Assembly: GCA_018608405.1 (NCBI GenBank)
Contig: JABAZP010000005.1
Coordinates: 186,001 to 250,000 of the forward strand
DNA: 64,000 nt
Direction: 5' to 3'
Source: Flavobacteriales bacterium
Lineage (GTDB): Bacteria; Bacteroidota; Bacteroidia; Flavobacteriales_E; Vicingaceae
The notes beneath the pieces are model-generated. The model had not been told where the DNA came from. It did no database searches and worked only from the letters and a program-made list of their open reading frames with translations. Made by a program: the position numbers and the translations under genes. Positions 19,359 to 22,997 of the stretch are shown piece after piece; positions within the stretch are counted from its first letter, which is position 1, and every line of letters begins with the position of its first letter.

Positions 19359-20378
19359 ATGAAATGGAAAATTCTTCTGTTACTAGGTGGTATCATCTTT
19401 TCACTATCGTCCATTTCACAAGAAACAGTGGATTCTAATTATATACATGTATTAACTGAGAAATTACACCTACGAACTTTTACATCAAATAAATATACAA
19501 ATGTAGTTGTTTCAACAAATGGCACTAACTCCATTGAGTACGAGCCAAATTCTACCACGACTTTTGGTGTTGGAGCAACCGTAAGGTCATTTTCGTTAAA
19601 TATAGCTTACGGTTTTAGGTTTTTAAATGCAGAAGAGGGGAAAGGCAAAACAAATCATTTCGACTTGCAGGCAAACCTTTATAAGCGCAAGTATGTGATG
19701 GATATTTTTGTGCAGTTGTATGAGGGTTTTTATCTAAACAACACAAATGCACTAAATGAGAATTATACATTGCCGTTTTATTTAAGGCCGGATTTAAACG
19801 CCAGATTATATGGAGTTTCTTATTTACATGTATTTAACTCCGATAAATTCTCTTATGCTGCCCCATTTGTGCAAAATGAGATCCAAGAAAAATCGGCAGG
19901 AAGTTTTCTGTTAGGGGGTAAAATGTTTTACAATAGTGTTGCGACAGATAGCTCATTGGTTCCATCTTTTACTCAGGATTCTATTTACGGAGTTATTTCA
20001 AATGTTCAGCAATTTAAAGCCTTTCAGGTTGGGCCTACAGTTGGATATGCTTATTCCTTGGTAGCAAAAAAGCACTTGTTTTTAATTGGTTCTCTAGATC
20101 TTTCGTTTATGACTGGACCAGTACGTTTTAATAGTTTAGATGGGAAAGAAGATGAGCAATGGCAGGTTAACCCGGTTATTGGAGCACGATTGGGACTTGG
20201 TTATAACTCTCCCGGGTGGTTTTTGGGACTAACATTTTTACAAGAAGGCACCACACTAAAGGGGGTTGATAAGTTGGGTGAGATAAACATAAGCGGCGGC
20301 AGTGTGCGATTAAATTATGTGAAACGATTTGAAATGAGTAAGAAATTTAAAACTTTGCTTGCAAAACTTCCGCTTTAG
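19359..20378 (+). CDS. DUF4421 outer-membrane barrel protein
   Basis: Protein of 339 residues with signal peptide (ending SSISQ). Family features include KLHLRTFTSNKYTN and the long set of beta strands (GVGATVRSFSLNIAYGF, FDLQANLYKRKYVMDIFVQ, GFYLNN, YGVSYLHVFN, SYAAPFVQNEIQ, GSFLLGGKMFYN), followed by GARLGLGYNS and GWFLGLTF. DUF4421 is a Bacteroidota family of unknown function, predicted to sit in the outer membrane. A perfect promoter element lies 5 bp upstream. The next gene begins 17 bp downstream, so they may share an mRNA. Confidence 0.85.
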   Translation: MKWKILLLLGGIIFSLSSISQETVDSNYIHVLTEKLHLRTFTSNKYTNVVVSTNGTNSIEYEPNSTTTFGVGATVRSFSLNIAYGFRFLNAEEGKGKTNHFDLQANLYKRKYVMDIFVQLYEGFYLNNTNALNENYTLPFYLRPDLNARLYGVSYLHVFNSDKFSYAAPFVQNEIQEKSAGSFLLGGKMFYNSVATDSSLVPSFTQDSIYGVISNVQQFKAFQVGPTVGYAYSLVAKKHLFLIGSLDLSFMTGPVRFNSLDGKEDEQWQVNPVIGARLGLGYNSPGWFLGLTFLQEGTTLKGVDKLGEINISGGSVRLNYVKRFEMSKKFKTLLAKLPL

Positions 20379-20395: not shown

Positions 20396-20995
20396 ATGGG
20401 CATATTAGCTAACTTATTTAAGGGTAATTCTTTCCAACATGAACCAAAGGCTGCAGAGGAGGCTGAGGTTTTGATTCGAGAAGCGATAAAAACGACAAAG
20501 GCTTTTGAAAACGATTTTTCGATTTGGCTGGAAAAGGGAATGCACAAAGGATTGCTAGATTACCTGAATGAGTGCATATCTGAGCGAAAAACAAACCCAA
20601 GAGCTGAGGTCAACCTATATTTTCATGAGTCAAAAAATTCGAATGGGTTCTATTTCAGAGCTGAAAGCCCATGGTCAACAGAAGATTATTATTTTCTAGT
20701 TCACTTAATCAAACAAAAATTGATAGCTCAAAACTACGTTCAAAACCACGCAACTAGAGAAGTAATAGAGCAAAAAGGAGAGCTAAAAACAAATGAAGAG
20801 TTTTTCTTTAAACCTTCGTTGAAGTTTAAACGAGAAACACCCTACGAACAGTTATTCGGAAATGTATTTATTGAACATAGAATTAATGGGGACAAAACCG
20901 AACTCATAAAAATAATGGTGAATACTTATACGGATCAGCTTTATAAAAAGCCCTATGACTTCGAGGATTTTTTAACTGAAATTTGTTTAATTTAA
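20396..20995 (+). CDS. Conserved-looking hypothetical protein, partner of the next gene
   Basis: Cytoplasmic protein of 199 residues that I do not recognise. It is charged, has no signal or membrane segment, and looks alpha/beta: a helical N-terminal half (EAEVLIREAIKTTKAFENDF) and strands such as AEVNLYFHES, NGFYFRAES and NVFIEHRING. It lies 17 bp after the DUF4421 gene and 4 bp before the kinase-like gene, which suggests joint function with the latter. Phrases such as KLKFKRETPYEQLFG-like FKRETPYEQLFG and FGNVFIEHR could be interaction surfaces, but nothing more can be said. Confidence 0.6.
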   Translation: MGILANLFKGNSFQHEPKAAEEAEVLIREAIKTTKAFENDFSIWLEKGMHKGLLDYLNECISERKTNPRAEVNLYFHESKNSNGFYFRAESPWSTEDYYFLVHLIKQKLIAQNYVQNHATREVIEQKGELKTNEEFFFKPSLKFKRETPYEQLFGNVFIEHRINGDKTELIKIMVNTYTDQLYKKPYDFEDFLTEICLI

Positions 20996-20999
20996 TGGC

Positions 21000-22070
21000 A
21001 TGAATGATATTTCGAAAAAGAAAGTACACTACCCAATAAAAGAGCCGCTGCGCCAATATCTAGAAGAGTACTCAAGAGAAATATCGCTTCCCATCGCTTA
21101 CGAAGATTTAAACCACTACGAGAACTCTATATCGTTATACAACGATGCAGGAGAGGATACACTATGGGAGACCGTCTTTTATAGTCAAAGTGACATGAGC
21201 GAAATTCATACTGCTCTTAGTAGCGTGTATGCTTTGCTAAAAACAGAGGGAGACGTTGAAATATTAGAACATTTATATGTCAACAGGATTGATTATTGTC
21301 CTTTTGGAAATTCTAAACCCTTCCGTATTCGCGTCACGAACAAATTCAATGATAATTATGATTATTTCTATATCAAAAAAGCTGATTCTTCAAGAGTTTA
21401 CGGTCTAGAACTGGAGCATATTCTTTCACCAAATAGAATTTCCTACATCGTTGACGGTAACACAATAGTAGAAGATCACATTGCAGGAATTCCTGGAGAT
21501 GTATTCATAAAAAATTGGCTAACAGACCCTCAATTAAATAAAATTCGATTAGCAAAGGAATTTGTAAAGTTTAATGAACGTTGTTTTGTTCGGTTGTTAG
21601 GAGATATGCGATCTTACAATTACGTGGTGGATGTTACTCCTGATTTTGATGCAGTTCAATATAGAATTCGGGCAATTGATTTTGATCAGCAAACGTATGA
21701 GGGGAATAAAACCATGTATTTACCGCAGTTTTTTAAAGACAATAATCCCATTGTTGAATTTGTTGCAAATCTTTTAGATCCTAAAACTATTCGACAGTAT
21801 CAGAAAGAGGAGCGTGTATTGATTGCAAATCGAATTAGGGTTTCACGGTATCGCTTAAAAGATTTATCTGACTGCCTAGAAAATGATACGATTAGTTTAC
21901 CAGAAAAGGTAAATCAGTTGAAACAAGAGTTAGCTGATCATTTTAGTGATGAAAGTTTCTTGGAATGCACTTGCATGGGAGATATCCTCAAAACTCGACT
22001 GTATATTTTAATGTACGACAATCGTTCTGTATTAAAGGGGGACGATGACAAAGAGTTTAAGCTAGTTTAA
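21000..22070 (+). CDS. Hypothetical protein with kinase-like catalytic motifs
   Basis: Protein of 356 residues, soluble. I do not recognise a named family. Motifs in the order expected of an atypical protein-kinase/APH fold are visible: a strand with Lys (FYIKKAD, 123-129), a Glu-containing helix (YGLELEHIL, 134-142), a hinge-like segment (HIAGIPGDVF, 160-169), a catalytic-loop-like LLGDMRSYNYVVD (199-211; Asp202, Asn207 in D-x4-N spacing) and RAIDFDQQ (224-231), with Asp-Phe-Asp in the place of DFG. The C-terminal 100 residues are helical. The kinase idea is inference. The gene follows 20396-20995 by 4 bp and overlaps the convergent dehydrogenase by 9 bp. Confidence 0.6.
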   Translation: MNDISKKKVHYPIKEPLRQYLEEYSREISLPIAYEDLNHYENSISLYNDAGEDTLWETVFYSQSDMSEIHTALSSVYALLKTEGDVEILEHLYVNRIDYCPFGNSKPFRIRVTNKFNDNYDYFYIKKADSSRVYGLELEHILSPNRISYIVDGNTIVEDHIAGIPGDVFIKNWLTDPQLNKIRLAKEFVKFNERCFVRLLGDMRSYNYVVDVTPDFDAVQYRIRAIDFDQQTYEGNKTMYLPQFFKDNNPIVEFVANLLDPKTIRQYQKEERVLIANRIRVSRYRLKDLSDCLENDTISLPEKVNQLKQELADHFSDESFLECTCMGDILKTRLYILMYDNRSVLKGDDDKEFKLV

Positions 22071-22997
22071 AATCTTATCGGCTAGAATATTACTAAGTTT
22101 ATAGTAAGACTCTTTGGTCCATCCAGCCACATGCGGAGTGAGTATAACTTTTTTCGAGCTTCTTAAATAATTAAATGCTTCGGGTAGGTCTGTTTTACTT
22201 AAATCTTCAAATGAAGTTTTCTCATATTCTAAAACATCTAAACAAGCGCCCATAACCTGACCTTTTTCTAAGGCTTTTACCAAGTCAGAGGTTTTAACGT
22301 TTTTTCCTCGTGCAGTGTTGATGAGGTAGATGTCGTTTTTAAAATGGTTTAAAAATAAATCATCTATCATAAATGTGGTTTCTTCCGTCAAAGGCAGGTG
22401 AATACTTAATATCTCGGTCTCTTTAAAAAAAGTTGTTAAGTCAACTTCGGTTACAATTTCGCTAGAGAAATTACTTTTATACTTATCATATGCAATGGTT
22501 TTGACACCAAACCCAGCTAGTCGTTCAGCCAATGCCTGCCCCATAAAACCATAACCTAATATGCCTACTGTTTTACCCTTTAGTTCAAGACCTCGGTTTT
22601 TTTCTCTATTCCATTGGGCATTCCGCACTTCCACGTCTGATTGTTTTAGGTGGTTGAACAAGCTTAAAATCATACCTATGCAATGCTCAGCTACAGCATC
22701 TCTATTTCCTTCTGGCGAGTTGTATAATTGAATGTTCTTTTTTCGAGCTACTTCCGAGTCTATATTTTCCATGCCTGCTCCTGAACGGGCAATCCACTTT
22801 AATCGAGGAGATTGCTCAAATACTTTTTCGTCAAACTTGAATTTACTGCGTATAACAGCACCACTGTATTTGGGTAAAATACTAAGGATTTCTGCTCTGG
22901 ATAGTTCATTCTTCCAATGGCATTCGTAACCAGCATGTTCTAACCTTTCGAAAAGAATGGGGTGAACTGAATCGATGAAAATTACTTTGGGTTTCAT
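22062..22997 (-). CDS. 2-hydroxyacid dehydrogenase, phosphoglycerate-dehydrogenase-like
   Basis: NAD-dependent enzyme of 311 residues. The nucleotide-binding motif is VGILGYGFMGQALAERL with a following Asp (AYDKYK). Catalytic Arg lies in INTARGKNV, Glu in VLEYEKTS and His in TPHVAGWTKES. It differs clearly from the serA product at 60630-61580 in its motifs, so it is probably a paralogue with another 2-hydroxyacid substrate. Its own TACCTTTG promoter overlaps the end of mgtE. The gene order dehydrogenase, mgtE, rsmA, DUF4286, TPR, serS is familiar from other Flavobacteriales. Confidence 0.85.
   Translation of the reverse strand: MKPKVIFIDSVHPILFERLEHAGYECHWKNELSRAEILSILPKYSGAVIRSKFKFDEKVFEQSPRLKWIARSGAGMENIDSEVARKKNIQLYNSPEGNRDAVAEHCIGMILSLFNHLKQSDVEVRNAQWNREKNRGLELKGKTVGILGYGFMGQALAERLAGFGVKTIAYDKYKSNFSSEIVTEVDLTTFFKETEILSIHLPLTEETTFMIDDLFLNHFKNDIYLINTARGKNVKTSDLVKALEKGQVMGACLDVLEYEKTSFEDLSKTDLPEAFNYLRSSKKVILTPHVAGWTKESYYKLSNILADKILN

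Follow-up and report, generated by a model that had tools for sequence, protein, structure and literature searches.

A predicted kinase-fold protein family in Bacteroidota, with a lineage-specific neighbor gene in a Flavobacteriales genome

A Bacteroidota family of the protein-kinase-like (PKL) superfamily, likely a phosphotransferase that acts on a core substrate and has no obligatory partner, is our preferred reading (probability roughly 0.8) of P2, the second of two closely spaced proteins encoded in a Flavobacteriales genome; on the same reading, its upstream neighbor P1 is unrelated to it. Neither Pfam nor NCBIfam has an entry for the P2 family, and its genes therefore carry no family name. 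What these collections lack is an apparently active kinase-fold enzyme of at least hundreds of Bacteroidota species, and the near-absolute conservation of P2 suggests an important conserved reaction. Below, we discuss the predicted fold and the invariant residues of P2, the status of P1, and the genomic contexts in which the P2 family occurs.

Gene layout

Within the window, a stretch of 64,000 nucleotides, two plus-strand open reading frames lie 4 bp apart. The gene before them, at 19359-20378, encodes a DUF4421 protein (Pfam E 7e-55), and the gene pair, the spacing and the preceding gene are confirmed as they were first described:

20396..20995, plus strand: P1, the upstream open reading frame (199 aa), member of a separate uncharacterised Bacteroidia family that neighbors P2 in family f1 only
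21000..22070, plus strand: P2, predicted kinase-fold protein of 356 aa (AlphaFold2 model, Foldseek matches, Bacteroidota homologues)

Both are real open reading frames. Comparison with genome G002 indicates purifying selection on P2 (dN 0.020, dS 1.23) and on P1 (dN 0.057, dS 1.03), the dN/dS ratios being rough because dS is near saturation. In G002 the DUF4421 gene is broken up into short frames, and it was not found at this position in other members of the genus (L154, L156, L157, L074), a pattern suggestive of decay or loss. As several close relatives lack it or carry a broken version, it is not part of the system either. At its 3' end, the P2 gene overlaps by 9 bp with a convergent minus-strand gene at 22062-22997, which resembles a D-2-hydroxyacid dehydrogenase on inspection.

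Predicted fold of P2

AlphaFold2 models the P2 of the window, together with 60 homologues, with a pLDDT of 86 and a pTM of 0.85. A Foldseek search of the PDB with this model returns 41 matches at E<=1e-3, all of them PI3K, protein kinases, Bud32 or the pseudokinase Pan3, the best being Vps34 (2x6h, E 2.3e-5, TMq 0.40). Matches in the BFVD viral library are likewise mostly viral kinases, mainly protein kinases. Global TM-scores of the kinase matches are low (<=0.40), and we therefore claim the superfamily for P2 and no particular kinase family. In the model, the secondary structure runs in kinase order, with K126 in a strand, E137 and E139 in the next helix, D202 to N207 after a long helix, and D227 after a pair of strands. 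The predicted architecture is thus that of a two-lobed kinase, albeit with low TM-scores, and not the unrelated fold that the preliminary description had named as grounds for giving up the kinase reading. The model, the Foldseek matches, the invariant residues and the wide distribution described below together support the kinase call made there for the second protein, which holds at the level of the superfamily.

Invariant residues and a proposed mechanism

The conserved positions fall into the following parts of P2:

21000..21272, plus strand: N-terminal region, residues 1-91, before the kinase lobes (boundary placed from predicted secondary structure)
21273..21494, plus strand: predicted N-lobe, residues 92-165, with the K126 strand and the E137/E139 helix (secondary structure, invariance)
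21594..21620, plus strand: predicted catalytic loop LLGDMRSYN, residues 199-207, with D202 and N207 (invariance)
21675..21692, plus strand: putative metal-loop motif IDFDQQ, residues 226-231, with D227 and D229 (invariance, predicted role)

K126, E139, D202, N207, D227 and D229 are invariant in all 138 P2 homologues, as are F228 and Q230, so that the Lys-Glu-Asp-Asn-Asp set of PKL members is present in order (K126, E139, D202, N207, D227). Of the residues singled out initially, Lys126, Asp202, Asn207 and Asp227 proved invariant (138/138), while Lys127 is variable, and the predicted catalytic lysine of P2 is therefore K126. E137 is replaced by Asp in two of the 138 sequences; E139 is the stricter position, and the helix glutamate may therefore be E139. 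Eighty of the 138 homologues are loci found with a pattern that covers the D202-N207 loop, and the remaining 58 were chosen without the motif. Conservation of D202 and N207 in alignment A2 is discounted because its loci came from a pattern spanning that loop; in the set free of motif selection, both residues are retained in 58/58. K7, K8 and W56 are invariant in the N-terminal region. A canonical glycine-rich loop (GxGxxG) is absent from P2, and four further invariant residues, C100, N104, P107 and R109, appear to stand where the nucleotide loop would lie.

For P2 we infer ATP use, catalysis, the type of substrate and a cytoplasmic location. The protein would most likely be an ATP-dependent phosphotransferase. 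In the proposed mechanism, the ATP phosphates would be held by K126 together with a glutamate, E137 or E139, of the helix that follows; D202 would serve as the catalytic aspartate, and Mg2+ would be bound by N207 and D227. The target of P2 would probably be a single, fixed intracellular substrate that belongs to core physiology, and no obligatory genetic partner would be needed. We lean only slightly toward a small molecule or lipid over a protein as that substrate. More tentatively, the family may be a kinase, or a transferase with a kinase fold, that is distributed across the phylum Bacteroidota and has not been described before. It would be marked by an N-terminal region of its own and by an atypical nucleotide loop, and its core substrate would be one that is not known to be phosphorylated, for example a Bacteroidota-specific lipid or envelope component. 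The mutations with which to test P2 are now defined: K126, D202, N207 and D227.

P2 could instead combine a kinase fold with an activity other than phosphotransfer, such as AMPylation or glutamylation, or could serve as a non-catalytic scaffold. Other divergent PKL families, such as SelO and SidJ, have such alternative activities (PMC10870513), and in P2 the loop is atypical and DFG is replaced by a conserved IDFDQQ. Unlike many pseudokinases, however, P2 keeps all five canonical catalytic positions in 138/138 homologues (counting E137 or E139), and we regard this reading as unlikely.

P1, probably an unrelated lineage-specific neighbor

The preliminary description proposed that the two proteins form a two-component module, a kinase with its substrate or regulator; as part of a functional module, P1 might also be an antitoxin-like partner. 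P1 and P2 are encoded on the same strand, and P1 lies directly upstream of P2 in 12 loci, with a gap of 4 bp in most of the genus and of at most 21 bp elsewhere. All 12, however, belong to family f1, and P1 occurs at the same syntenic position, with the same flanking genes, in two genomes in which P2 does not adjoin it (G019 and G023; loci L165 and L166). In G019, another contig encodes a different P2; in G023, P2 was not found. The two loci give the impression that P2 was either gained by insertion or lost at this position. The P1 family is wider and fast-evolving, occurring in 42 of the 247 genomes of the class. Across these 247 genomes, P1 and P2 are found together in 16, against 14.5 expected (Fisher p = 0.6), and each is commonly found without the other: P1 without P2 in 26 of 42 P1 genomes, and P2 without P1 in 69 of 85 P2 genomes. 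With family f1 left out, the odds ratio is 0.75. The two genes are ~1.2 Mb apart in G222, and in other clades P2 has other co-directional neighbors. With adjacency confined to f1 and chance-level co-occurrence, linkage and co-occurrence do not identify a two-gene kinase-partner module, and the proposal is not supported; we consider a functional module somewhat less likely still than a P2 that does not transfer phosphate. P1 is most likely an unrelated, lineage-specific neighbor of P2.

The AlphaFold2 model of P1, built from two input sequences only, has a pLDDT of 43. A weak match to T6SS_Tdi1_C (E 0.044), seen in one of 15 members of the P1 family, is not credible.

An uncatalogued family

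Sequence and profile searches with P2 yield nothing credible in Pfam, NCBIfam, PHROGs, PADLOC or PDB sequences, and 39 P2 homologues searched against Pfam and NCBIfam give scattered weak matches only. A literature search limited to open-licence papers returned no account of the family. The PKL superfamily comprises more than 70 families, many of them absent from Pfam, and the KINtaro database holds 72 PKL family models (PMC10870513); the P2 family may already be among them. With no sequence-level match and low TM-scores, the kinase resemblance could in principle be an artefact that conceals another fold, but the confident model, the uniform kinase matches in two structure libraries and the invariant motifs in kinase order make this very improbable. 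The motifs noticed at the outset are present and, judged from their conservation, far exceed a chance resemblance.

Distribution and genomic neighborhoods

P2 is found in 80 of 296 genomes of the phylum, in one of which (G305:C1:3158139-3158413) it is represented only by short, stop-interrupted fragments, an apparent pseudogene, and in 85 of 247 genomes of the class, with one weak partial match discounted. At least 592 stretches match P2 in the GTDB species collection; the best 80 loci listed from it are all from Bacteroidota, and as far as searched, the family is restricted to this phylum among the matches listed. Hosts include Pontibacter, Hymenobacter, Algoriphagus, Chitinophaga, Runella, Roseivirga and Saprospiraceae. 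The gene is usually single-copy and chromosomal, and it is absent from the plasmid, phage and IMG/VR sets searched. G147 carries two copies (L212 and L213), of which L212 is very divergent yet keeps all catalytic residues. Co-occurrence of P2 with BshC (bacillithiol synthesis; 231 of 247 genomes) and SprA (239 of 247) is uninformative because both are nearly universal.

In the P2 tree, sequences group largely by family. Family f1 forms two separate clades (L154-L164 and L168-L173), one linked to P1 and the other located elsewhere in the genome, which points to transfer or an old duplication. A neighborhood survey shows that the immediate same-strand neighbors of P2 vary by clade: DUF3817 in 15 loci, mostly of Cyclobacteriaceae; FtsW/RodA (rodA) in Runella and Telluribacter; MlaE in Chitinophagaceae; glycosyltransferases in Flammeovirgaceae and in genomes of other classes; and, in other loci, CorA, a LytTR regulator or malic enzyme. 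This variety fits a gene that works alone. At L185 and L186, two loci in genomes of other classes, an upstream glycosyltransferase gene, whose product we take to resemble BshA, shares 4 bp with P2.

Comparison with known kinases

The best PDB fold match of P2 is to the catalytic domain of the class III PI3-kinase Vps34 (PI3K, PF00454). P2 shares 9% identity with PI3K over the alignment, has no Pfam match to the PI3/PI4 kinase profile and lacks the other PI3K domains; PF00454 itself was not found in 60 Bacteroidia genomes.

HipA (PF07804), APH (PF01636) and RIO (PF01163) have in common with P2 a D-x4-N loop with an Asp motif after it, and the label of an APH/RIO-type kinase had been attached to P2 for its order of Lys strand, Glu helix, hinge, loop and IDFD motif. 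The narrower label finds no backing: Pfam gives no APH match for P2, nor for 39 family members at E<=1, and an hhalign comparison with Bacteroidia APH is not significant (E 0.044, probability 1%), although a control alignment of HipA with APH, known relatives, failed too; RIO1, which has too few Bacteroidia sequences for an alignment, was compared by Pfam scan only, which gives no match. Least probable of all is the reading of P2 as a toxin kinase of the HipA type or as a kinase of some other conflict system: hhalign against Bacteroidia HipA does align the D-x4-N loop, again without significance and with the same failed control, and the D-x-[RH]-x-x-N loop of P2 presumably resembles DxHxxN-type loops, but P2 has no HipA_C match in Pfam, no PADLOC match and no HipB-like or other fixed partner gene, and it is a gene under very strong purifying selection, usually in one copy and never on the plasmids or phages searched.

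The Lani_1194/NoeA family is another divergent predicted kinase family that also occurs in Flavobacteriales; its members are kinase-methyltransferases, with a methyltransferase domain and an Arg replacing the Lys (PMC9758233). P2 has neither the methyltransferase domain nor the Arg, and is set apart from that family by its published description (PMC9758233).

Most other significant fold matches of P2 are to Ser/Thr kinases (RSK2, CDPK, MK2) and Bud32 (E 4e-4). Identity to these is ~10-15% with TM-scores of 0.2-0.4, and P2 differs from them in having IDFDQQ for DFG and in the missing GxGxxG loop, whereas the order of its Lys, Glu, Asp, Asn and Asp is that of eukaryotic-type kinases.
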